A DNA stretch of 64,000 bases from Paenibacillus sp. JNUCC-31 (GTDB lineage: Bacteria; Bacillota; Bacilli; Paenibacillales; Paenibacillaceae). Shown here piece by piece: positions 5,071-56,654 of this stretch. The position numbers were made by a program, and so were the translations under genes. The notes below the pieces were generated by a model, which was given only the letters and a program-made list of their open reading frames with translations, was not told the DNA's origin and did no database searches. The DNA lies in the NCBI RefSeq assembly GCF_014844075.1, contig NZ_CP062165.1, forward strand, positions 62,001 through 126,000. Reading direction: 5' to 3'. Within the stretch, counting starts at the first letter, position 1; each line of letters starts with the position of its first letter.

Positions 5071-5852
5071 AATCTCTCCCCCTAATATCTCATAATTGTC
5101 CTAACATGATCTAACCGGCGAAACGTTTTTGAAGAGATCTACCTTCATCCACAGGATCTCATAAAACACTAAATAAGTTTTGTTCATAAATTTCACAAGT
5201 AATTAAACTACAAGTTTGTCTAAATTTTTCGCTTTAAACATCACTTATAGACATCACAACCTTTCAAGTGATATTTTATTATATATTTTGATAGTATTGT
5301 ATATCAATTTATTCTCGAAATCAAATATACGTACTATTTTAGAAAATTGACTAGGAGTTAGGAAACTTAGGGATAAGGCCTCGGCTAAATTAATTGGACA
5401 GAACAAAAGGCCGATTCCTTTTTGAGGATCGGCCTAACAGAGAGATGGGAAAGACTCGAGTTACAACTGAATTAAAAGTTTAATTCAATTCCAATTGACA
5501 ACATCATAATAGCCCTTTTATTTAATTTTAAACCTTTAGTCGGTGAAATGTTATGTGTTTTAGATTGTAACCCCTTGTTATAAACTTTTTTTCTCTGAAT
5601 CTTCTTTTGTTGTCTCATTGTATAGTTGCTTCTCGCCAATTAAATGAAGATCCCCAATCAGCTCGTCCCTTAAAGAAGGGTGTCCACTTCGTATCTCAAT
5701 TATGGAGAAATCGTTTGAATGCAGGCTTTACAGCAAATAAACTTAGCCTTCTATACTCAACATAAACTTGGCTTTTCATTAAATGACCCTTCCTTTTACA
5801 AAAGGGTAACTTCCTAATTTATCTTATCAAGACAATCCACATATTGGAACTA
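5071..5852. other. Non-coding or fully decayed stretch
   Basis: No credible gene is visible on either strand. A hairpin-forming inverted repeat, AGGCCGAT with ATCGGCCT, lies near 5408-5435 without a following T-run. The rest is AT-rich sequence leading into dispersed-repeat material. Confidence 0.5.
5408..5435. terminator. Hairpin without clear T-run
   Basis: AGGCCGAT and ATCGGCCT form an 8-base stem around a short loop, about 340 bases upstream of the monooxygenase start. It may be the terminator of a lost gene. Confidence 0.3.
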
Positions 5853-6085
5853 ACCTACCCGTGAGCTTAATGAAACAGATAATATTCTAATCGAAATTGA
5901 TTACCATGTTCCCAATCTTTTCAGCAATGGAACTGAGTTCTTGCCTTCAGAAAGCGAATTGTACTTTTAGCTCGCCACATAAGTTCCGTCATGATAAGAT
6001 TTTGATAACAATCTAATCCGAAATGACACAATGTTCTTGTCCTTTTCGGCAAAGGAACCAAGTTCTTGTCCCTAACAATGACAAA
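5853..6085 (+). repeat. Degenerate dispersed repeat, long form
   Basis: It begins with CTACCCGTGAGCTTAATGAA, a variant of the CTGCCCGTTAGTTTAATGAA block seen at 9258, 14320, 15511, 38527, 40464 and 56481. Two GTTCTTG(T)CC-type blocks follow, ending in ACAATGACAAATCAGCACTAAG. The adjoining 6080-6280 resembles 40545-40745, so a longer unit is shared by these two places. Confidence 0.5.
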
Positions 6086-6297: not shown

Positions 6298-6376
6298 TTA
6301 GATATTTATCTAATCGGAAATGGGAACAAGTTCGTGTCCATTTCGGCAATCGGAACAAGTTCGTGTCCTTCAACAG
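6298..6376 (+). repeat. Dispersed repeat, short form
   Basis: It contains TTAGATATTTATCTAATCGG, then two GTTCGTGTCC blocks separated by TTTCGGCAATCGG, ending at CTTCAACA. The GTTCGTGTCC spelling differs from the common GTTCTTGTCC, which suggests divergence or a local conversion event. Confidence 0.55.
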
Positions 6377-6507: not shown

Positions 6508-6664
6508 TTAGATATGCACCTAATCGGCAATGGGACGATGTTCTTGTCCATTTCGGTAATCGGTACAAGTTCTTGTCCTTAGCTTGGGACAAGAACTTGT
6601 ACCGATAAAATAAAAAAGCCGCTAAAATAGCGACTTCAATGGGAATATGTTCTTGTCCCTCGAC
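6508..6664 (+). repeat. Dispersed repeat, near-complete copy with 20-base inverted repeat and hairpin
   Basis: This is one of the best copies. In order it has a TTAGATAT..ACCTAATCGG block, a GTTCTTGTCCATTTCGG block, a perfect 20-base inverted repeat (6559-6578 and 6587-6606) with an 8-base loop, a terminator-like hairpin at 6616-6636, and a closing GTTCTTGTCCCTCGACA. Read on the minus strand the hairpin is followed by TTTTTTATTTTA, typical of an intrinsic terminator. A long open frame crosses it on the minus strand but reflects the repeat, not a gene. Confidence 0.8.
6610..6637 (-). terminator. Terminator-like hairpin inside dispersed repeat
   Basis: The stem AGTCGCTA/TAGCGGCT (minus strand) is followed by a run of T residues. 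It would stop minus-strand transcription. The same module occurs in the copies at 8461, 11664, 15746, 30650 and 40800. Confidence 0.55.
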
Positions 6665-6722
6665 ACAAAAATAGCGTCGACAGGAATCCCGCGACATGTT
6701 GTAGTGTCATCGTTTGGATTTT

Positions 6723-6755
6723 CAAAAGCAGCCGATCAATGTGATCGGCTGCTTA
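6723..6755 (-). terminator. Intrinsic terminator of the sigma/anti-sigma operon
   Basis: The stem AGCAGCCGATCA (6727-6738) and TGATCGGCTGCT (6741-6752) is followed, read leftward, by TTTTGAAAA. It lies 45 bases after the anti-sigma stop codon. The GCAGCCG(A/G)TC hairpin is itself repeated in the window, near 14340, 38547 and 48855. Confidence 0.75.
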
Positions 6756-6800
6756 CTTAATTCAAGGAACTTGTTACAAGTTTAGATGAACAAACAAACG

Positions 6801-7796
6801 TTATTTCTGATTGGAGATAATTGCTGCTGCAAAATTGCGTAAATCCTCATCATCAGCGGTTTTAGTGACTACTGCGTAACTCCGATAATTACCATCGGCT
6901 ACTTTCTTCGACCAATTTATAGACTTTTCACTTCCATTGAGATCCCGATAAAAATAAGCATCGACTCCTTTAATAGAGAGTATTGAGTCCGAGGAAGGTT
7001 TACTATCATAAAAAATTGGCATTACTGGTATATTTAATGATGCGTTAACCCTTATTTCTTTTTTCTGCTTGCTATAGAACCAACTCAAAAATTGAGGCTC
7101 CGTTCCGCTTGGTCCTATTGTATATTTGTATCTAGTTCCAGTCTGATCATCCGTAGCAAAATTCCATACTTTCTCCTTTGAACTAGTGCTCAAAATATCA
7201 TTTTGTAGTTCAGCCCGATTAAGACTCCACCCCATCCATTTGGATAGCGGAATATTGATTTCGACTCCACGTTCCAGTAAATAATCATTCATTCGTTCAG
7301 GAGAATCGAACTCAAGAGGTTTAACAACCATAGAATAATGAGATCCATTCTGTGGCAAAACTTCACCCTTCTGTTCTTCATCCGCTTTTTTTCCAATAAA
7401 TACAGTCGCTTGTTCCCCATCTTTCAATGTCTCACGTATATCATCTAATATACTTATCTCCTCTACAGGCGGCGATGGTATATCTGTTGGTGCTATCTGA
7501 AATACTGTATCACCTGACTTATTATTAAGTGATAGTACATATTCGAAATAAGCTGCATAACCGGTTCCTCCAACCAGCACAAATACACAGAGCATCACAG
7601 CCACGCGAGTAGCCATGTTTTTCCGCACGCTTCTGCTATAGCGAGACCCTTCTCTCTCGTTAAGTAATCGGTTTATCACATTTGTTGTTACTTCACTACT
7701 CGAACGTACTGGAGAAGGGATATTGCGATATGCTGCCGAGAGCTCCTCCAAATAATTATCGTTCCGGTGATATAGACGTCCACGATTCTTGCCCAT
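6801..7796 (-). CDS. Putative membrane-anchored anti-sigma factor
   Basis: The protein has about 331 residues. The first 65 or so are cytosolic and hydrophilic. One transmembrane helix follows (VAVMLCVFVLVGGTGYAAYF), then a large extracytoplasmic domain of about 240 residues. It is co-transcribed with, and overlaps by about 40 bases, the ECF sigma gene upstream, the usual arrangement for a cognate anti-sigma factor that holds the sigma at the membrane until a signal arrives. The ATG at 7796 is chosen because GAGGAGGGGGAAG lies just before it. I do not recognise the extracellular domain, and no zinc-binding HxxxCxxC motif is evident, so it is not a ZAS-type anti-sigma. Confidence 0.75.
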   Translation of the reverse strand: MGKNRGRLYHRNDNYLEELSAAYRNIPSPVRSSSEVTTNVINRLLNEREGSRYSRSVRKNMATRVAVMLCVFVLVGGTGYAAYFEYVLSLNNKSGDTVFQIAPTDIPSPPVEEISILDDIRETLKDGEQATVFIGKKADEEQKGEVLPQNGSHYSMVVKPLEFDSPERMNDYLLERGVEINIPLSKWMGWSLNRAELQNDILSTSSKEKVWNFATDDQTGTRYKYTIGPSGTEPQFLSWFYSKQKKEIRVNASLNIPVMPIFYDSKPSSDSILSIKGVDAYFYRDLNGSEKSINWSKKVADGNYRSYAVVTKTADDEDLRNFAAAIISNQK

Positions 7797-8340
7797 AATC
7801 TTCCCCCTCCTCATGCACATAATTGCGTTGTATCTTATATCTCGTTCGCTCGAAACGTTTTCGCACTGTCGCTACCTTGCAGTCGAGGATCACTGAGATC
7901 TCTTCAAATGTCAACTCTTCAACGACGCGTAAAAGCATAATCTGTCTCTCTTCCATCGACAATCCTCGCAGCAGTTCATCTACTCTAAATGAGGTATCGT
8001 AGTCAGTTGTAACTGCTTCAAGACGGAACAGATGCAACCTGGACATTAAACCTTTACGCTTGCGGATTAAATTTAAGCAATGATTGTAGGCAATCTTATA
8101 CAACCACGAGGTAAATGAGACCTGTCGAGTATATTTATCTATATTCTTGATTACTTGCAAAAACACATCTTGAACGGCATCTTCTGCTTCCTCCCGATTC
8201 CGGATCAAATTGTAGACATAACGATACAAAGGAAGCTGATAGATTTCAATTACATGCCTAAGGGCATTCATGTTCCCAGCTTTAACCCTAATTATCCATT
8301 CTTCAATATTTTCAGCATTATTGCGTGTACTGTTTTCCAT
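7756..8340 (-). CDS. ECF-type RNA polymerase sigma factor
   Basis: The 194-residue protein has sigma region 2 (YVYNLIRNREEAEDAVQDVF, then SFTSWLYKIAYNHCLNLIRK) and sigma region 4 (LRVVEELTFEEISVILDCK, then VATVRKRFERTRYKIQ). ECF sigma factors redirect RNA polymerase to a small stress regulon and normally activate their own promoter. GGAGGACAT precedes the ATG. The 3' end overlaps the putative anti-sigma gene, implying translational coupling. The 5' end now abuts sequence derived from a dispersed repeat and the tail of the phosphatase reading frame, so its promoter region may have been altered. Confidence 0.9.
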   Translation of the reverse strand: MENSTRNNAENIEEWIIRVKAGNMNALRHVIEIYQLPLYRYVYNLIRNREEAEDAVQDVFLQVIKNIDKYTRQVSFTSWLYKIAYNHCLNLIRKRKGLMSRLHLFRLEAVTTDYDTSFRVDELLRGLSMEERQIMLLRVVEELTFEEISVILDCKVATVRKRFERTRYKIQRNYVHEEGEDYGQESWTSISPER

Positions 8341-9187
8341 ATGTCCTCCTTTCTTTACTTCTCAAGGCCTTTAATAATTTAAACACTCGAAGTCCTCCAT
8401 TTGTGACATGCATTAAGATATAATTTTCCAGTTGGCGCGAGCCGGTGATACACTCAATTATTAGATATACATCTAGTCGAAAATTGGGCGATGTTCTTGT
8501 CCATTCCGGTAATCGGGACAAGAACTTGTACCGATAAAATAAAAAAGTCGCTAAAATAGCGACTTCAATGGGACCTTGTTCTTGTCCCTCGACATATATC
8601 GACTGAATATCTCCTTTATAACCGGGCTGCCTGTTATATAATTGGCATGCCCACTTGTTGTTAGTGTGTGTAAGAATGGTTATAGAAGTATTATCTATAT
8701 ACGTTTTTTGGAAATGTTGCGGCAAAAGATGTTGTAATGACAGCCCAATCAATGCTCCATGACTTATAACTAATATTCTTTTATCAACATGTTCTTTAAT
8801 CAGTTTTTCGAGAAAAGTTAGACCTCGCTTTGCAACCATTTTGAAATCTTCCATACCAAGATTTTGCTCACGCCAATTTGCTCCCCAACGAGTGATACGC
8901 TCTTCCTCGGTGGTGCCTTCAATTAGGCCGCAATTAATCTCTCTAATACGTTCATCATTGAATACGGGTACTCCTAAACATTGCTGAATGATTTCGGCAG
9001 TTTGCCTAGCTCTCGTTAGATTACTGGAGAATATAACATCCCATTCTTCGCTTGAAAGTCTTTTTGCCAGTGCAGTTGCTTGCTCTATTCCTTCTTCGTT
9101 TAGCGGTATATCAGATATTCCTTGAGCCTTGCTAAGATTATTCCATTCAGTAACCCCATGTCTAATAAGACCTATTGTGGTCGCCAT
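8318..9187 (-). CDS. Histidine phosphatase (phosphoglycerate-mutase-like) with repeat-derived C-terminal extension
   Basis: From the ATG at 9187 the protein starts MATTIGLIRHGVTEWN, with the catalytic RHG motif, then SSNLTRARQTAE, RIREINCGLIEG and VISHGALIGL, the second catalytic histidine. The phosphatase core is about 185-190 residues and acts on phosphorylated sugars or nucleotides. After RQPGYKGDIQSIY the frame enters the dispersed repeat at 8461-8594 and gains about 95 residues (VEGQEQGPIEVAILATFLFY and on). It stops only inside the sigma gene's 5' end, so the natural stop codon seems lost. The frame also extends upstream to 9418 through another repeat copy, but those residues are not family-like. 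Confidence 0.75.
   Translation of the reverse strand: MATTIGLIRHGVTEWNNLSKAQGISDIPLNEEGIEQATALAKRLSSEEWDVIFSSNLTRARQTAEIIQQCLGVPVFNDERIREINCGLIEGTTEEERITRWGANWREQNLGMEDFKMVAKRGLTFLEKLIKEHVDKRILVISHGALIGLSLQHLLPQHFQKTYIDNTSITILTHTNNKWACQLYNRQPGYKGDIQSIYVEGQEQGPIEVAILATFLFYRYKFLSRLPEWTRTSPNFRLDVYLIIECITGSRQLENYILMHVTNGGLRVFKLLKALRSKERRTYGKQYTQ
8461..8594 (+). repeat. Dispersed repeat lacking the left arm of its inverted repeat
   Basis: It has TTAGATATACATCTAGTCG, GTTCTTGTCCATTCCGG, then directly GGGACAAGAACTTGTACCGA, the AAGTCGCTA/TAGCGACTT hairpin (a perfect 9-base stem here) and GTTCTTGTCCCTCGACA. Compared with the copy at 6508, the left inverted-repeat arm and loop are deleted. It forms the 3' part of the phosphatase frame. 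Confidence 0.75.
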
Positions 9188-9255
9188 ACCTGCCCCGTTA
9201 ATGATTACAATTTCCCCATCATTGCCCAAACAAATAGTACCACATATTGGAACTA

Positions 9256-9366
9256 TACTGCCCGTTAGTTTAATGAATTGAAGGGCAAGATGACGATTAG
9301 TTATGCGTCTAACCGGAAATAGGACCATGTTCTTGTCCCTCGACAGAGGACAAGAACATTGTTCCA
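9256..9366 (+). repeat. Dispersed repeat, long-form left part
   Basis: It starts at CTGCCCGTTAGTTTAATGAA and runs through GATTAGTTATGCGTCTAACCGG to GTTCTTGTCCCTCGACAG, followed by an inverted GGACAAGAACATTG. It lies in the 5' flank of the phosphatase gene, which therefore has a repeat copy on each side. Confidence 0.6.
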
Positions 9367-9435
9367 TTGCCTTCCTCTTCTTATCTTTTTGCGACAACCA
9401 AGAGCCGTTAATCAACATTGCACTGATTAACGGCT

Positions 9436-9597
9436 CTAAAAATTTAATCTTTTCACATATGCTTCAACTGATTTTTGTAATACTTTCTTTTCATCATCCT
9501 GGATGCTTCTTCTGATCAGCATCGCAACAGATTGAGGTGTATAAGACTTCATAGTATAAATATTACGTTTGGCGCTTTCATGTTGATATGACGGCTG
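9436..9597 (-). pseudogene. Short orphan coding remnant
   Basis: An open minus-strand stretch reads SYQHESAKRNIYTMKSYTPQ, then SVAMLIRRSIQDDEKKVLQK and a short tail to a stop at 9436. Composition looks protein-like and the product would be helical. It has no ribosome site and is cut at its start by the decayed repeat of the secreted-protein gene. I do not recognise the family. Confidence 0.3.
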
Positions 9598-9802
9598 ACG
9601 AAAATTGCTAATTGATAGAGTTACTGAAATTAGAAGTCAAAGCTTATAAGCATACCGTTTTCGGTGGTGTAACCTTAAGGGTTAAAATTTGAGATCATAT
9701 GACGACCGTTATGGAATAGCAGTTAATGGCACAGGTTCTTATCAATAAGTATCAACCGGCTGATAAAGTCACATACAACAAATCCAATGTTCAATGAAGC
9801 CA
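9595..9802 (+). pseudogene. Decayed partial copy of the 3' end of the secreted-protein gene
   Basis: This stretch matches 10700-10956 (the last third of the gene at 10170-10901 plus about 55 bases after its stop) with substitutions and at least four internal deletions. Shared landmarks include CTGACGAAAA, TACTGAAATTAGAAGTCAAA, GGTTCTTATCAATAA and CAACCGGCTGATAAAGTCAC. It has no open frame. Confidence 0.7.
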
Positions 9803-9878
9803 CCCTGCCCATTACTTTAATGAATTGACGGGCAGGATATCATAACAATTGGCTAGCTGAATGAATGAATGAATTAAT

Positions 9879-10091
9879 TTAATTTATTTTGAAAAATTTT
9901 ATTAATAAGAAATAAAACAATATCCCTCCTAAAACCCCAAAAAAAGCATATAAATCAGTAAACATATACGCTATGAAAATAGAAGTTATTAATGTCACAA
10001 CGGTCCCGGTTTTTATATTAGAAAATTTGTAGACCATAAAACCCAGAAATCCAGAGATTAAAGTCGTAATAAAAGGAATAAAAAGGTACAT
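9879..10091 (-). CDS. Small integral membrane protein, unknown function
   Basis: The product has about 70 residues and is almost wholly hydrophobic, with two or three membrane helices (FIPFITTLISGFLGFMVY, TVVTLITSIFIAYMF, FFGVLGGILFYFLLIKFF). The ATG at 10091 has GGAGG nine bases before it; an upstream in-frame ATG at 10145 lacks such a site. It is divergent from the secreted-protein gene at 10170, 78 bases away. A partner or immunity role for that protein is possible but only a guess. Confidence 0.5.
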   Translation of the reverse strand: MYLFIPFITTLISGFLGFMVYKFSNIKTGTVVTLITSIFIAYMFTDLYAFFGVLGGILFYFLLIKFFKIN

Positions 10092-10169
10092 ATTTGCTAA
10101 CCTCCTAACTTGCACTAAATTTTTACAATGGTATACTCGGTTCATACTAAATTTTGGGAGGTAATAAAT

Positions 10170-10901
10170 TTGATTAAACAGATTCCAGCTTTTAGAACGA
10201 TATCTTTAGCTCTTATCCTTTTCTTACTTGGTACGCTCGTTTACCCTTCGTCTTATTCCAGCGCCTCTGCTAGCTACTCAGATAAAGATTATCAAAAAAT
10301 TGCTGAACATATGAGAGAAGATGGTTCTTCACAGGATGATATTAACAGTGTAATCAACAAATTAAAAAAAGGAGAAATACTAGATGCTGATAAACCAAAT
10401 CCAACTGCTTTAAGAACAACAGATTCGAATAACAACGAAAGTTTAACGGTCACTTCTGAAAATCCAACGATACACCAAAAATTTGAGGATGGTTCATACA
10501 AGAAATTAAGTTTAGTGATTGAGCCTTCAGTTACCGTGGCTGCGTCTAATGGACAGTCCATGTATTTTAAGGTTGAAGGAACAAGTGTCTTTGGGACAGC
10601 AAGCTTCAATACCTCTGCATTCATAGACACGCACATCGGTAATAGCTATATTACTGGTGTATCCGGCACCTCTATTCATTCCATTATGGGGGTATATTCT
10701 GACGAAAAGTTGCTGATTGATAGACTTACTGAAATTAGAAGTCAAAGTATTCCTGCTGAAGCACATTTAACTTATAAGCATACCGCTTTCGGTGGTGTAT
10801 CAGCTAAAACAAGAACCTTGAGGGTTAAAATCGGAGATCATATTGACGATCGTTATGGAATAGCAGTTACTTTTACTGATGGCACAGGTTCTTATCAATA
10901 A
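10170..10901 (+). CDS. Secreted protein of unknown function
   Basis: From the TTG at 10170, preceded by GGGAGGT, the protein has about 243 residues. An N-terminal signal peptide (IKQIPAFRTISLALILFLLG and on) ends near ASA. A charged helical segment of about 40 residues follows (SDKDYQKIAEHMREDGSSQD), then a C-terminal beta-rich domain with SLVIEPSVTVAAS, INTSAFIDTHIG-like strands and GDHIDDRYGIAVTF. I do not recognise the family. A strong stem-loop lies 100 bases downstream, and a broken copy of the 3' half lies 900 bases upstream, so a tandem duplication once existed. Confidence 0.6.
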   Translation: MIKQIPAFRTISLALILFLLGTLVYPSSYSSASASYSDKDYQKIAEHMREDGSSQDDINSVINKLKKGEILDADKPNPTALRTTDSNNNESLTVTSENPTIHQKFEDGSYKKLSLVIEPSVTVAASNGQSMYFKVEGTSVFGTASFNTSAFIDTHIGNSYITGVSGTSIHSIMGVYSDEKLLIDRLTEIRSQSIPAEAHLTYKHTAFGGVSAKTRTLRVKIGDHIDDRYGIAVTFTDGTGSYQ

Positions 10902-11000
10902 ATATCAACCGGCTGATAAAGTCACATAAAACAAATCCCAAGTTCAATGAAGCCAACCCTCTCTTATGATATTAACCTTTTTAATGGATGTTCAAAAAAA

Positions 11001-11053
11001 TAATTTAGTAGAACCCTTTTCCGCTTGAGCGAACAAAGGGTTCTACTAAATTA
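11001..11053 (+). terminator. Strong hairpin downstream of the secreted-protein gene
   Basis: A perfect 19-base inverted repeat (11001-11019 and 11035-11053) encloses a 15-base loop. It is AT-rich at its foot and lies 100 bases after the stop codon at 10901. It could work in either direction. Confidence 0.6.
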
Positions 11054-11109
11054 TGTGTGATGATTTTGGACTCAGCATTCCTGTGAATCTCCAAGCAATA
11101 CATAACTTA

Positions 11110-11440
11110 AATGGCACCGAGTCCTCTTCCCTCTTTAAACATGACTGCCTGCTCCTTCATAAATTCTACAGCTGACAGCTCATTATTCTTCCAGTTGAGA
11201 TACTCGGTATTCAGGACTGATCTGGTGTATTTGTATTCAAATTCATTTGTGGCCGCCCCAAGTGTTTACCTTTTTTCTTGGCTTCAGCAATACCCTCAGC
11301 CTGTGCTTGTTAAATCCATTACGTTCCTCTTCGGCAAGCCAGCTAAGCATCTCACAAGATCCATAATAAGCTGCCCTATCCCTGAAACTCCTAGTACTTT
11401 CTCGTATCGAGAATCCTAATGTCGATCACCACAATATGAA
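11110..11440 (-). pseudogene. Serine recombinase (resolvase/invertase) remnant
   Basis: Minus-strand pieces in different frames read IVVIDIRILDTR, then EMLSWLAEEERN, then QAEGIAEAKKKGKHLGRPQ. These match in order the C-terminal catalytic and hinge region of small serine recombinases. Several frameshifts and stops separate them, so the gene is dead. Resolvases come from transposons, plasmids or prophages, which supports past mobile-element activity here. Confidence 0.65.
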
Positions 11441-11663
11441 TTTTTGCAATGATCAGCCATTGCCTCTCTTTTCTACTTTTTATTCCCCCCAACCGTTTGA
11501 TGAACTTAACAAATTATTTATCACCCTCACGGATGAAACGCTGTACAACCTCACCTTCTCGAATTTCATCTGTATGTTGGCCAGAGCATTTTTAAATATT
11601 AGATACTCATAAAATCGGTAATGAGGACGGTTTCTAAAGTCTAAGTAACAAGTGTAAATTTGT

Positions 11664-11796
11664 CTAGGTCACCATCTAATCGAATTTGACACAATGTTCA
11701 TATCCTTTTCGGCAACCGAGACAAGAACTTGTACCGATAAAATAAAACAGCCGCTAAAATAGCGACTTTGAATGAAACGTTTTATTGTCCCACGAC
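11664..11796 (+). repeat. Dispersed repeat, diverged copy
   Basis: It contains ACCATCTAATCGAATTTG, a diverged GTTCATATCC block, GAGACAAGAACTTGTACCGA, the GCCGCTAAAATAGCGAC hairpin and a diverged tail TTTATTGTCCCACGAC. The left inverted-repeat arm is missing, as in the copy at 8461. Confidence 0.6.
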
Positions 11797-11885
11797 TATT
11801 TACGCAATTTTTTCAACCGGCGTCTTGACTGACGCCAGAGCGTTGTTAATGAATTGTGGAGGCGTAAACACTTAACATCCTTTTA

Positions 11886-12500
11886 TTACTTTTCTCCAAC
11901 ATGAAACACACCAATTACAGTTTTACCATCAACATCAAACAGCGGAATATCAAGACCTCCTGGTGATCTACTGTTCTGTATTGCAATGGCTTCCTCGGGT
12001 GATTTTGGTAACTCACCGTCTAAGTCTTTTTTTAGCACATATCCTGAAGTGCCATCCTCACCTATAGCACTGATTAATTCAGGTTCCGTTTCTGGAGAAG
12101 TAGCATCTGCGCTTGAACCGTATGTCTGTCCTTTTTTATTTTTAGGATAGTTCATACTCTTAGGGCTAATATGAAAAGAGCCAATTATGGTTTTCCCATA
12201 AACATCATACAGTGGGACATCACCAGGTTCACCGAGATAATCTTTTTTCAGTAAGTACCCTTTAATGCCATTTACACTTCCTGCATAGATTAAGTCAGGT
12301 AGTATCTCAAAGGAGTTAGACTCTTCAATTGTTCCGAATGTCAGTCCATGTTCATTTTCAGAATAGTCGATAGGCGTTATGTGACTTGGATTAACCGTAT
12401 TTTTAGCACTTGTATTCTGGGATACCATCAGACCGCCTGAAACACTAATGATAAAAATCGCAAAACCCGATATTAGAGCGCCCTTAGAGTACATTTTCAT
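11886..12500 (-). CDS. Exported or membrane-anchored protein with two repeated domains
   Basis: The 204-residue protein has an N-terminal signal/anchor helix (ALISGFAIFIISVSGGLMV). Two related units follow. Each has Y(S/P)xNxxGxTxG near its start, a GYxLKKD motif in the middle and ends with a P-L-(Y/F)-D-V-x-G-K-T-(V/I)-I-G-x-F-H segment (PLYDVYGKTIIGSFHI and PLFDVDGKTVIGVFHV). The second unit carries an extra SPEEAIAIQNSR insertion. I do not know the function. It follows the TPR gene by 36 bases and is probably co-transcribed with it. GAGGAGTG precedes the ATG. Confidence 0.65.
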   Translation of the reverse strand: MKMYSKGALISGFAIFIISVSGGLMVSQNTSAKNTVNPSHITPIDYSENEHGLTFGTIEESNSFEILPDLIYAGSVNGIKGYLLKKDYLGEPGDVPLYDVYGKTIIGSFHISPKSMNYPKNKKGQTYGSSADATSPETEPELISAIGEDGTSGYVLKKDLDGELPKSPEEAIAIQNSRSPGGLDIPLFDVDGKTVIGVFHVGEK

Positions 12501-12536
12501 AACTGTTCACTCCTCATCTTCCATTGTTTCAATACT

Positions 12537-13478
12537 TTATCGCAATTTATTTTTTGCAATTATATTTTCAGGGTCAATTTTTAAGATGCGGATGTAACAA
12601 GCTCTTTCTTTTTCTTTGAAATGGATCAAACTATAAATTTGAGCTAATAGTAACAAAATATCTATATCAATCGGATCTAATGAAGAGGCATGTTCTAATA
12701 GTTTGATTGAGGCCTCGTAATTGCCTTGTCTCTCAAGTAACTTACCTTTGAAATAAAGCGCAACAGTATTATTTGGATCAAAACTTAATATTGATTCTAA
12801 ATAATATGCTGTTAATTCAAATTGATTTTCTTCAAGAAAAATTTTTGCGATTTGTAACCTTACATCGTAATCTTCAGGTTCTGATATTAGGATCTTTTTA
12901 AAATCAATAATAGCCTCCTCTTTTTTCCCCATATGCTTTAACACTAATGCTTTGTTATACATTGCATTAGTTGATGAAGGATCTATCTGTAAAGCCCACT
13001 GAAATTCGTTGAGCGCTTCTTGATTATTGCCCATTTCATGGAAAATTAATCCTAGGTTAATGTGAGCCTCTTCTTGATTAGTATTAAGCGCTAATGATTT
13101 TTGATAGTATTCTATTGCTTTCTTATATTCCTCCTTTTTTTGATAACAAAGGGCAAGATAATACAAAGCATCTTCAGAATTTGAGTTTATCATTACTGCA
13201 CGTTTACAAAAAATTAGTGCATCTTCAGTATTGCCTAATTGTAAATAGACATAACCTTTATTAAAGTATAATCTTTCCCATGTAGGGAATAGTCTAATTG
13301 CCCTGTCGTAAACTTCAATTGCGGCATTATATTCTTTTAACTCTGTAAGACATCTTCCCATGTAATTTAGTGTATCTTGGATATCTATATTATCATTGAG
13401 AGCTTTTTTAAAGTAAACTAATGCTTCATCATAATTACCTTCTTCATAGAGCTCTTCCCCTTGTTCAAAAAAAGTCAT
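12537..13478 (-). CDS. Tetratricopeptide-repeat protein
   Basis: The protein of about 313 residues is made of eight or nine consecutive 34-residue TPR units with the usual W/LG-Y/F-A-P pattern, for example DEALVYFKKALNDNIDIQDT, EALNEFQWALQIDPSSTNAM and YEASIKLLEHASSLDPIDID. TPRs form a superhelix that binds partner peptides. There is no signal peptide, so it is cytosolic. The ATG at 13478 is preceded by AAGGAG at a good distance. The exported two-domain protein follows 36 bases downstream. No specific partner can be named. Confidence 0.85.
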   Translation of the reverse strand: MTFFEQGEELYEEGNYDEALVYFKKALNDNIDIQDTLNYMGRCLTELKEYNAAIEVYDRAIRLFPTWERLYFNKGYVYLQLGNTEDALIFCKRAVMINSNSEDALYYLALCYQKKEEYKKAIEYYQKSLALNTNQEEAHINLGLIFHEMGNNQEALNEFQWALQIDPSSTNAMYNKALVLKHMGKKEEAIIDFKKILISEPEDYDVRLQIAKIFLEENQFELTAYYLESILSFDPNNTVALYFKGKLLERQGNYEASIKLLEHASSLDPIDIDILLLLAQIYSLIHFKEKERACYIRILKIDPENIIAKNKLR

Positions 13479-13711
13479 TTTTCGCATCTCCTTTTTATAA
13501 TATTGACCCCAACAAATAAGTTGTTGAGATCAAAAATACTAAGATCAAATTGATAATTAATTATCTATACATGTCCAAATCATTCCAACTTCTGTTGTTA
13601 TCATTTCTAATTTCATTTTGATTTTCTCCTATATTACAATGTAATTATTTTTGATTGTTGTTCTGATTGTGCCATGCTGCAATTTCTTCCATCCTTTGTT
13701 TAATTTTAGAT

Positions 13712-15508: not shown

Positions 15509-15593
15509 ACCTGCCCGTTAATGAAATGAAGGACAAGATGACGATTAGATACACGCCTAATTGGCAATAGGAACATGTTCTTGTCTCTCGACA
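15509..15593 (+). repeat. Dispersed repeat, long-form left part
   Basis: CTGCCCGTTAATGAAATGAA, GATTAGATACACGCCTAATTGG and GTTCTTGTCTCTCGACAG occur in the same order and orientation as at 9256 and 40463. The inverted repeat and hairpin are absent; the hairpin module appears separately 150 bases later. Confidence 0.6.
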
Positions 15594-15745: not shown

Positions 15746-15807
15746 AAAAAACAAAAAAGCCGCTAATATAGCGACTTTCAATGGGACCATGCTTTTGTCC
15801 CTTGACA
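15746..15807 (+). repeat. Dispersed repeat, right part with hairpin
   Basis: AAAAAAGCCGCTAATATAGCGACTTTCAA (written here by position 15754-15782) is followed by GGGACCATGCTTTTGTCCC and TTGACATA. It carries only the terminator module and the closing block. It lies 62 bases beyond the permease stop and could end that operon's transcript. Confidence 0.65.
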
Positions 15808-30649: not shown

Positions 30650-30905
30650 ATGTTTTACCTTTTCATCGTGTCAGTTCTGTCATAACAATGTGAACATTTT
30701 CATGTATTACGGTACTTAATGTGGTTTTAAGTACATATGTTCATTTTTTAGATATCCATCTAATCGGAAATGGGAACATGTTCTTATCCATTTCGGCAAT
30801 CGGTACAAGTTCTTGTCCTTAGCTTGGGACAAGAACTTGTACCGATAAAATAAAAAAGCCGCTAAAATAGCGACTTCAATAGAATCATGTTCTTGTCTCT
30901 CGACA
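30650..30905 (+). repeat. Dispersed repeat, longest copy seen
   Basis: It opens with TTATGTTTTACCTTTTCATC and GTGAACATTTTCATGTATTA, continues TTAGATATCCATCTAATCGG, GTTCTTATCCATTTCGG, a perfect 20-base inverted repeat (30799-30818, 30827-30846), the GCCGCTAAAATAGCGAC hairpin and GTTCTTGTCTCTCGACA. The opening 70 bases recur alone at 61915-61985 and partly at 38085-38130, so this copy probably shows the full unit. Confidence 0.8.
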
Positions 30906-34320: not shown

Positions 34321-34399
34321 TTTAGGTACTCATCTAATCGTTCATCGGACTATGTTCTTGCCCATTCCGGCAATCGGTACAAGTTCTTGTCCCTCGACA
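34321..34399 (+). repeat. Dispersed repeat, short form
   Basis: TTTAGGTACTCATCTAATCG, GTTCTTGCCCATTCCGG and GGTACAAGTTCTTGTCCC end in TCGACA. The hairpin and right inverted-repeat arm are missing. It supplies the 3' end of the reading frame at 34334. Confidence 0.7.
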
Positions 34400-38096: not shown

Positions 38097-38224
38097 TTTC
38101 CTGTATTATGGTACTTGATAAAGCTTTAAGTGCATGTGTTCAATGTTTAGATATACATCTAAACGGCAATCGGACTATGTTCTTGTCCATTCCGGCAATC
38201 GGTACAAGTTCTTGTCCCTCGACA
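38085..38224 (+). repeat. Dispersed repeat without hairpin
   Basis: AACATTTTCCTGTATTATGG, TTAGATATACATCTAAACGG, GTTCTTGTCCATTCCGG and GGTACAAGTTCTTGTCCC end in TCGACA. The right arm and hairpin are missing, as in the copy at 34321. It replaces the 5' end of the MazG-like gene. Confidence 0.75.
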
Positions 38225-40462: not shown

Positions 40463-40760
40463 CATGCCCGTTGGCTTTATGAAATAAGGTGAAATACCGA
40501 TTAGATATACGCCTAATCGGTAATAGGAACATGTTCTTGTCCCTCAACAATGACAGGATCAGCACTAAGTACGATATCGGTATATGTTTTCATTCCTCGA
40601 GCCAAAAGACACATCCAGCATCCTCTCCACTTCTTTGCTAAAGTGCTTTTACGAGTTTGTTTTATCTAATTCAAATGAGATCACAGTTTTAATCGAAGTA
40701 CTTCCGATCATTGAAGCTGGTTTCTTTGACTATAAAACAGCATTCAGTGTTTCTGTCACC
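40463..40760 (+). repeat. Dispersed repeat, long form with extended body
   Basis: CATGCCCGTTGGCTTTATGA, GATTAGATATACGCCTAATCGG (positions 40499-40520) and GTTCTTGTCCCTCAACAATG open it. About 200 further bases match 6080-6280 (TCAGCACTAAGT, TTTGCTAAAGTGCTT, TTTGTTTTATCT, TTGAAGCTGGT). The two places share the same order of blocks, so they may be copies of one longer decayed element. Confidence 0.6.
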
Positions 40761-40799: not shown

Positions 40800-41011
40800 A
40801 AAACTGTCCTGTATAATGCTGCTTATTGAGGTTTTAATTACATTTCTTCTCATTTAGATACCCATCTAATCGGTAATCGGACTATGTTCTTGTCCATTCC
40901 GGCAATCGGTACAAGTTCTTGTCCTTGGCTCGGGACACGAACTTGTACCGATAAAATAAAAAAGCCGCTAAAATAGCGACTTCAATAGGAACATGTTCTT
41001 GTCCCTCGACA
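40800..41011 (+). repeat. Dispersed repeat, near-complete copy
   Basis: TTTAGATACCCATCTAATCG, GTTCTTGTCCATTCCGG, inverted-repeat arms at 40905-40924 and 40933-40952 (one mismatch), the GCCGCTAAAATAGCGAC hairpin and GTTCTTGTCCCTCGACA. It lies about 170 bases past the LicT stop and could terminate the first beta-glucoside operon. Confidence 0.75.
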
Positions 41012-51176: not shown

Positions 51177-51207
51177 TTTTATGGTACCATGTTCTTCTCC
51201 CTCGACA
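51177..51207 (+). repeat. Dispersed repeat, closing block only
   Basis: ATGGTACCATGTTCTTCTCC followed by CTCGACA is the right-hand block of the repeat, directly beside the IS3 left end. Confidence 0.55.
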
Positions 51208-54345: not shown

Positions 54346-54402
54346 GAAGCTATTTTTCAAGCCCTTGCGCAAAGGAATACTGCCTTAGCAAAAAAAAATG
54401 CC

Positions 54403-54450
54403 TATTCGGTAATCGGTACAAGTTCTTGTCTTCGGCTCGGGACACGAACC
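54403..54450 (+). repeat. Dispersed repeat, central inverted-repeat part
   Basis: TATTCGGTAATCGGTACAAG, TTCTTGTCTTCGGCTCGGGA and CACGAACC are the left arm, loop and the start of the right arm. The copy at 40800 has the same CGGGACACGAAC variant, so these two are close relatives. Confidence 0.6.
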
Positions 54451-56479: not shown

Positions 56480-56580
56480 ATTCTGCCCGTTAGCTTAATG
56501 AAACAGATTAATATTCTAATCGACATTGGTACCATCTTCTTAACCTTTTCAGCAATGGCACTAAGTTCTTCCCTTAGGTT
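56480..56580 (+). repeat. Dispersed repeat, diverged long-form left part
   Basis: CTGCCCGTTAGCTTAATGAA and CAGATTAATATTCTAATCGA, then two blocks with TTTTCAGCAATGGCACTAAG and TTCTTCCC. It is closest to the diverged copy at 5853, sharing AATATTCTAATCG and TTTTCAGCAATGG. Confidence 0.55.
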
Positions 56581-56654
56581 GGAAAAAACTAATTTTATTT
56601 AGGCAGAAGCTTCTCCTTGTTCTGTTCTTTAAGTTGTTTTACATGCAAGTAAAT

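Follow-up and report, generated by a model that had tools for sequence, protein, structure and literature searches.

Transposons of the Tn5053 group target resolvase res sites and are not known to target chromosomal dif. Insertion sequences of the IS1202 family, which share ancestry with the transposase TnsB, target dif and pdif (PMC10132070), and Tn6022 finds comM through TnsF, a dead tyrosine recombinase that works with TniQ (PMC10293859; both sources available to us in part). Here we analyzed 64,000 nucleotides of Paenibacillus sp. JNUCC-31 (NZ_CP062165.1, positions 62,001 to 126,000, forward strand; hereafter the window, with positions counted from its first nucleotide), across which a family of short repeats is scattered. 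In all likelihood, these repeats are the dif-distal ends of Tn7-like transposons that lie beside a predicted dif site in related Paenibacillus. Repeated insertions, oriented by dif, likely left them behind as relics, with targeting probably through TniQ, possibly together with an inactivated XerS homologue carried by the transposon.

A sequence-only reading of the window had described about 16 dispersed copies, free of genes and modular, with iterated blocks, a 20-base inverted repeat and a built-in terminator, and these features held up. A profile built from six full window copies recovered 14 of the 16, the copy at 51177 being found by pattern only and the one at 5853 being real but visible only through alignment and its opening block. 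The iterated motif GTTCTTGTCC (at most one mismatch) occurs at 35 places against 3.5 expected, and the terminal 17-mer GTTCTTGTCCCTCGACA (at most three mismatches) at 12 (0.08 expected), every one on the plus strand. In the full copies 6508-6665 and 40853-41011, the left part consists of a near-palindrome, TTAGATAT.CATCTAATCGG, followed by two direct sites spaced 29 nt apart. The right part comprises an inverted site that forms the inverted repeat with its neighbor (20 nt, perfect, 6559-6578 and 6587-6606), a terminator-like hairpin on the minus strand (6637-6615), a last site and the terminus CTCGACA. This distal terminus, which reads TGTCGAGGGACAAGAAC inward, makes a sharp right boundary, whereas the left boundary is variable; copies are indeed cut at common internal boundaries, and in the shorter ones an earlier site is fused to the terminus. 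Other species have tandem repetitions of the left part, in units of 216-223 nt closed by a single full copy, and the pair of window copies at 6298 and 6508 resembles such an array; core sites in these units appear better conserved than the spacer (by eye). The window repeats are one end of a transposon, composed of a putative array of transposase sites and a TGT terminus. The window features are as follows, with s1 to s4 denoting sites.

5855..5945, plus strand: opening block with degenerate sites (previously reported at 5853), by alignment and opening block; missed by the profile
6001..6074, plus: left part of a distal end with two sites (6033, 6062), absent from the earlier list; profile match L039:8001-8074
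6298..6370, plus: unit of a distal-end array, with the full copy at 6508 lying 210 nt to its right; profile
6508..6665, plus: full distal end, with TTAGATAT.CATCTAATCGG, sites s4-s3, inverted s2, hairpin, s1 and CTCGACA; profile and pattern
6615..6637, minus: terminator-like hairpin within the distal end; hairpin search
8461..8594, plus: distal end with an internal deletion, s3 and s2 fused; profile and pattern
9297..9345, plus: distal end, single-site form with exact terminus; profile and pattern
9346..9371, plus: what is left of a different element's proximal end, the one facing dif: GAGGACAAGAAC..., first bases gone; by-eye comparison with proximal ends beside dif
9439..9615, minus: TniQ C-terminal relic, translation ending ...VKRLNF*; tblastn with G020 TniQ, and 71439-71597 (contig numbering) in another search
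11665..11796, plus: degenerate distal end; profile
15545..15593, plus: distal end, single-site form; profile and pattern
15747..15807, plus: distal end, terminator and s1 part; profile and pattern
30747..30905, plus: full distal end with upstream spacer; blastn, profile and pattern
34322..34399, plus: distal end, two-site form; profile and pattern
38147..38224, plus: distal end, two-site form; profile and pattern
40501..40549, plus: distal end, single-site form, terminus CTCAACA; profile and pattern
40853..41011, plus: full distal end, part of the search queries; blastn, profile and pattern
51191..51207, plus: terminus alone; pattern
54402..54449, plus: internal s3/s2 fragment; profile
56515..56585, plus: degenerate left part; profile

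The terminus of 6508-6665 is identical to that of the P. sediminis element L234 described below and to those of the exact ends in our chosen genomes. At 9329-9345 a distal terminus directly abuts the proximal remnant GAGGACAAGAAC, which is followed by the TniQ relic, and the order of remnant and relic is that of the proximal end and tniQ beside dif. Segments of about 90-97% identity, duplicated some 1.1 kb apart, lie next to the relic (9601-9838 and 10706-10958). A further block, CTGCCCGTTAGYTTAATGAA, has eight window copies (at most three mismatches; 5855, 9258, 9805, 14320, 15511, 38527, 40464 and 56483), all on the plus strand against 0.01 expected, several of them at the inner border of distal ends. 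Rfam gave no match in the window at gathering score, and a mobile RNA or riboswitch reading was dropped on that ground.

The copies continue well beyond the window. blastn of the home genome, with 40 of 62 candidates scored, gave at least 51 matches, of which 11 minus-strand echoes of the internal palindrome were dropped, leaving at least 40 places. Among the matches listed, 37 of the 40 places are no farther than 380 kb from the predicted dif; of all 40, 33 fall on one side of it and 39 are oriented alike relative to it, with orientation flipping there; the places beyond 380 kb are 739508 and 1591119, both with orientation kept, and 4537741, which is reversed. GC skew switches at 7.485-7.491 Mb, with dnaA at 3.41 Mb, and the point around which the copies cluster is the replication terminus. 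Both the clustering and the orientation lock lay beyond what could be seen from the window by itself.

Our dif prediction is the 29-mer TTCACAAAACTCGTATTTTGTACATATGT (7486372-7486400), the last stretch in common with the relative G021 before synteny ends, located at the skew switch in both genomes. It occurs once per genome in 70 of the 75 genomes of the genus, with no copy at up to three mismatches in the other five, and its left arm TTTCACAAAA resembles the left arm of difSL, TTTCCGAAAA (difSL as given in the available part of PMC5357621). We infer that the 29-mer is dif. A B. subtilis-type dif pattern gave three weak matches in the home genome, none at the skew switch, and two in the control. 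To the left of dif, aligned blocks of the home genome and G021 are 84-93% identical. A 7-kb block of the window (6602-13608) is 99.2% identical to G021 and begins inside a repeat copy, as if recently transferred with the element as anchor.

The family extends across the genus. A 661-nt query, comprising the element and part of a neighboring gene, matched 69 of 75 genus genomes with about seven candidates scored per genome, the best match being the gene in some (e.g. G060). Searching GTDB contigs with the pattern TGTCGAGGGACAAGAACN6CC returned at least 120 stretches, those listed being all from Paenibacillus except one Fontibacillus and one Saccharibacillus. Large Paenibacillus plasmids also carry copies (7 records, 31 places; L242, L243, H1-H7), and phage records gave no match to the repeats.

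We took a census of ends in 10 chosen genomes with the pattern TGTCKRRKGACAARAAC, typing ends by sequence. Of 106 exact ends, 98 were of the distal type found in the window and 8 of a proximal type. Distal-type ends on the dif contig had their inner side toward dif in 69 of 70 cases and lay on its 3′ side in 65 of 70. Proximal ends beside dif (e.g. TGTCGGAGGACAAGAACTTGTACCGTTAAAGGACAAGAACTTGTACC) contain the site motif of the window copies, oppositely oriented, follow the consensus TGTC(G/T)GA(G/T)GACAARAAC and lie 37-63 bp from dif in seven genomes (G023, 37; G020, 42; G055 and G073, 43; G054, 47; G004, 56; G035, 63 bp). Within 160 bp 3′ of dif, 11 of 29 parsed dif loci have a site of this or a second end family. 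The second family, TGTACATTGACACAAAGTTCCCTAC with repeated TGACACAAAG sites, lies about 23-50 bp 3′ of dif (home C1:7486400-7486450; L354, L365, L372, L373, L374, L375 and L385) and has no representative in the window.

Terminus clustering with a single orientation would also fit Tn7-like elements aimed at terminating replication forks, in the manner of TnsE, and not at dif itself. TnsE targeting prefers the terminus. The available part of PMC11406308 ties TnsE to lagging-strand synthesis. Against such fork targeting, the seven proximal ends at 37-63 bp form a fixed-site pattern, distal ends fall mostly on one side of dif, and a TniQ gene is present; though no search was aimed at TnsE, we consider it very unlikely. 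Less probable still are functional polar terminus sites, serving as a fork trap or in terminus organization and kept by selection in one orientation per arm. Their polar placement would flip at dif, as it does in many genomes, and the seemingly conserved core sites of the tandem units would suit them. A two-fork trap, however, would not need the observed one-sidedness, many copies are truncated, and one motif makes up both ends of the element whose 5-bp flanks are identical as well as the end of a tns unit.

That unit was found in P. pabuli (G020). Its order runs from dif through the proximal end at 855484 (42 bp from dif), tniQ (855610-857085), tnsC (857089-858084), tnsB (858091-860109) and tnsA (860060-860758) to a tyrosine-recombinase homologue (861125-862204). 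A distance of 19.7 kb separates the proximal end from the next exact end of the window type (875183), which probably belongs to the same unit as the tns genes; the DNA was read to 862900. TnsA (PF08722, 49.6 bits) and TnsC (PF05621, 42.5 bits, and AAA) exceeded their Pfam cut-offs. TnsB and TniQ had no Pfam match of their own and were assigned by identity to the G059 proteins (49% and 32%, respectively), the G059 TniQ lying above the PF06527 cut-off. Across 32 TnsB sequences, D233, D338 and E375 are invariant; the TnsB profile matches that of the CRISPR-associated transposons (CAST) at 3e-8, and a predicted model (mean pLDDT 77) has CAST TnsB, Tn7 TnsB and MuA as top matches, with modest TM-scores. 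Identity, profile and predicted fold together point to a TnsB-like transposase.

The tniQ gene adjoins the proximal end and reads toward dif. A TniQ free of internal stops, in one piece or two, is present on the dif contig in 10 genomes and reads toward dif in all of them, at 116-403 bp in G020, G055, G054, G035, G004, G046, G073, G023 and G059 (the last on the other side of dif) and at 16.4 kb in G029; TnsB stands beside it in nine of the 10, G054 being without. G066 and G071 have further TniQ copies on contigs without dif. Plasmid tblastn with TniQ found two weak records, and with G059 TnsB 67 records below 60% identity, mostly from Burkholderiales (H10-H34 among them); such plasmid relatives of TnsB are often annotated merely as hypothetical protein or integrase.

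Short, gene-free, hairpin-bearing and numerous, the repeats could be taken for a free-standing family of miniature inverted-repeat transposable elements or repetitive extragenic palindromic (REP) sequences mobilized by an unrelated transposase, and the sequence-only reading had leaned toward a non-autonomous or REP-like element. The mobile origin stands, but not the self-contained element, since the repeats are one end of Tn7-like transposons: a partner end and a tns operon exist, and the boundaries are sharp on the right and variable on the left. By eye, the 25 most recurrent open reading frame clusters of 120 loci (up to 8 kb) include no transposase-like gene, and a cognate gene beside the copies was rejected as a lead. 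We regard a free-standing family as extremely improbable. A candidate for the cognate transposase that the earlier reading had suggested looking for is encoded in related genomes; the home genome gave no TnsB-like match.

Target duplication, likewise suggested there as a check, was seen in one element of a relative. In P. sediminis (L234) a complete element of 3,146 bp, with its distal end at 2138 and its proximal end at 5283, is flanked on both sides by GGAGA, and identical 5-bp flanks occur in one of five inverted end pairs against 0.005 expected. No tns gene was recognized in its interior, and some 68 bp separate its proximal end from dif, on whose 5′ side it lies. Such 5′-side insertions (L234, G059) are exceptions to the usual side of dif and mirror the orientation, as copies on the home chromosome's opposite arm do.

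This element also bears on Xer-dependent integration at dif, by which a tyrosine recombinase would join circular elements to dif in arrays like those of integrative mobile elements exploiting Xer (IMEX), with the repeat as attachment site. The variable region does begin at the last base of the predicted dif, and 6 of 30 dif loci have XerS-like sequence no more than 1.5 kb away. Yet no dif-like core was seen at the copies (by eye), and the termini are TGT..ACA with a DDE transposase. A 5-bp duplication such as that of L234 is not expected of tyrosine recombinases, and we give Xer-dependent integration hardly any credence.

How Tn7-like insertions would have left mostly distal ends is suggested by a comparison of OVF10 (G054) with P. 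pabuli (G020). A 34.5-kb colinear block of 98.2% identity starts exactly at a distal terminus, and G020 lacks an 8.1-kb stretch of G054 that runs as far as a 571-bp segment with 99.3% identity. In our reading the difference arose by deletion, with the distal terminus as its anchor; with no match beyond the 571 bp, another rearrangement may instead be responsible. Such deletions are our proposed reason why distal ends outnumber proximal ones. Since the junctions at the terminus proved one-sided, we gave up an integron-like reading. In the proposed sequence of events, TniQ, with or without the dead XerS, would recognize the predicted dif; where present, the dead XerS would bind dif and TniQ would pass the site to TnsC and the transposase. 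With each landing the proximal end would come to lie beside dif and the distal end would face outward, new elements would insert between dif and older ones, and deletions anchored at a distal terminus would strip away cargo and the proximal ends of earlier insertions, so that strings of distal ends remain.

The XerS component emerges from the G020 unit, whose recombinase homologue has XerS as its best NCBIfam match (209.7 bits, below the cut-off of 267); in an NCBIfam XerS scan of five proteins, three passed, one of them encoded beside dif. Within the homologue group, the first catalytic Arg and the Lys are replaced in 23 of 23 members, the HxxR His in 22 of 22 long enough to judge and the HxxR Arg in 18 of 22, while the Tyr is kept; all 13 active-type XerS relatives retain all six catalytic residues. 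An inactivated tyrosine recombinase in one unit with TniQ is thus present in G020, as for TnsF selectors, and because Tn6022 pairs the dead recombinase TnsF with TniQ (available part of PMC10293859), the dead XerS may bind dif, with TniQ passing the site on. Five contigs apparently common to the lists of XerS-group and TnsB homologues suggest that the two are linked in other genomes too. The broader proposal is that a Tn7-like lineage captured the host XerS, killed its catalysis and homes on dif, and that landings and distal-end-anchored deletions built a one-sided, orientation-locked, hypervariable island of hundreds of kilobases, genus-wide, for gene uptake and discard. We hold this only tentatively, somewhat short of an even chance. 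In G029, the XerS-like gene next to dif is intact. The home XerS-like gene (C1:315258-316316, L051; 371.8 bits) has all catalytic residues and sits roughly 380 kb away from dif, close to the outer margin of the repeat island; some relatives carry XerS-like sequence beside dif.

Several observations weigh against dif-targeted Tn7-like insertion, and some against its XerS component. The home genome has no TnsB-like match, for which reason we regard the window copies as relics and not as working elements, and its TniQ sequences are just two relics (window 9439-9615 and C1:14300-14569). TnsB-like proteins occur in 15 of 75 genus genomes. The XerS-homing proposal is weakened because no XerS homologue appears in the DNA read near the tns genes in G029 and G059 (the G059 contig ends early), which leaves the unit of G020 as the only one in which it was seen. 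Proximal ends, at 8 of 106 exact ends, are too few for simple stacking; 18 of the 29 parsed dif loci have no site of either family within 160 bp 3′ (one further locus could not be parsed), and in G029 a proximal-type end lies just 5 bp from dif, with a second end directly after it. Behind distal ends, a family-1 site within 140 bp was found in 9 of 211 flanks, compared with 8 on the opposite strand and 0 in shuffled sequence, which is no clear excess over the opposite strand, and a family-2 site in 9 of 211, compared with 4 and 2; the 47-nt proximal-end profile is too short for counting relics. Individual proximal ends do stand behind distal ends, at no more than 2, 27 and 40 bp in L125, L219 and L230 and within 27 bp in G073:C10. 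The duplication was seen in one element, L234, and no clean empty site emerged for any window copy: eight insertions or deletions of at least 35 nt in the aligned home and G021 blocks contain no element, and the flank pairs of 325 merged elements (those near locus edges dropped) gave none. One of the 40 home places, at 4.54 Mb, is both distant and reversed, and decay of copies with distance from dif was significant in none of three genomes (Spearman 0.10, -0.19 and -0.31). Separately, home rve matches at C1:262406, 2574707 and 2885381 score equally, with a 319-aa open frame, and there are three weaker ones; no link to the repeats was seen.

If borne out, these findings would add dif to the attachment sites of multi-gene Tn7-like transposons, suggest a dead host-type recombinase as a testable means of finding it, and cast the replication terminus as a dumping ground for mobile DNA, a possible explanation for the terminus-linked variable region of Paenibacillus. 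They also provide tools for marking transposon borders and predicted dif sites in the genus, and make tolerance of insertions beside dif directly testable. By title and abstract, we found nothing on dif-targeting Tn7-like elements in Paenibacillus among the papers listed from the literature covered, which leaves out most subscription journals. The main texts of PMC10293859 and PMC8649781 contain neither the word dif nor Paenibacillus, and the available parts of PMC11406308, PMC5357621, PMC3025954 and PMC2731167 do not mention Paenibacillus.

Compared with described systems, the elements share with Tn7, Tn5053/Tn402 and CAST relatives the TGT/ACA termini, several predicted TnsB-type sites at each end with a common motif (TGTCGAGGGACAAGAAC at the distal end), and tnsA, tnsB, tnsC and tniQ, the last set being found in relatives and not in the window's own genome. 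As in these systems, a fixed attachment site controls orientation, with G029, L234 and G059 as exceptions, and the flanks share 5 bp, here in one element. Unlike those transposons, the attachment site is a predicted dif, relics spread over hundreds of kilobases, and the distal end carries a terminator hairpin and a pair of inverted sites, joined in some species by the tandem units of 216-223 nt. Tn5053-type res-site hunters offer a parallel as Tn7-like elements homing on recombination sites. The IS1202 family (ISAjo2 group), in the available part of PMC10132070, likewise combines TGT..ACA termini, a TnsB-like transposase, a 5-bp duplication and one orientation beside dif or pdif; its members are 1.5-kb one-gene insertion sequences, 5 bp from the XerC site. 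The Paenibacillus unit differs in having four tns genes in place of a single gene with 24-26-bp inverted repeats, in its mostly 37-63-bp distance and in a site resembling difSL. Closest in its targeting components is Tn6022 with TnsF, along with Tsy, in which a Tn7-like element couples TniQ to an inactivated tyrosine recombinase, there a target selector, with active relatives known; TnsF is XerH-like, bears zinc fingers at its N-terminus and has comM as its target (available part of PMC10293859). In the G020 homologue no N-terminal zinc-finger region was found and Pfam shows integrase domains only; unlike TnsF, it is a full-length XerS homologue whose predicted role is target selection and whose predicted target is dif.
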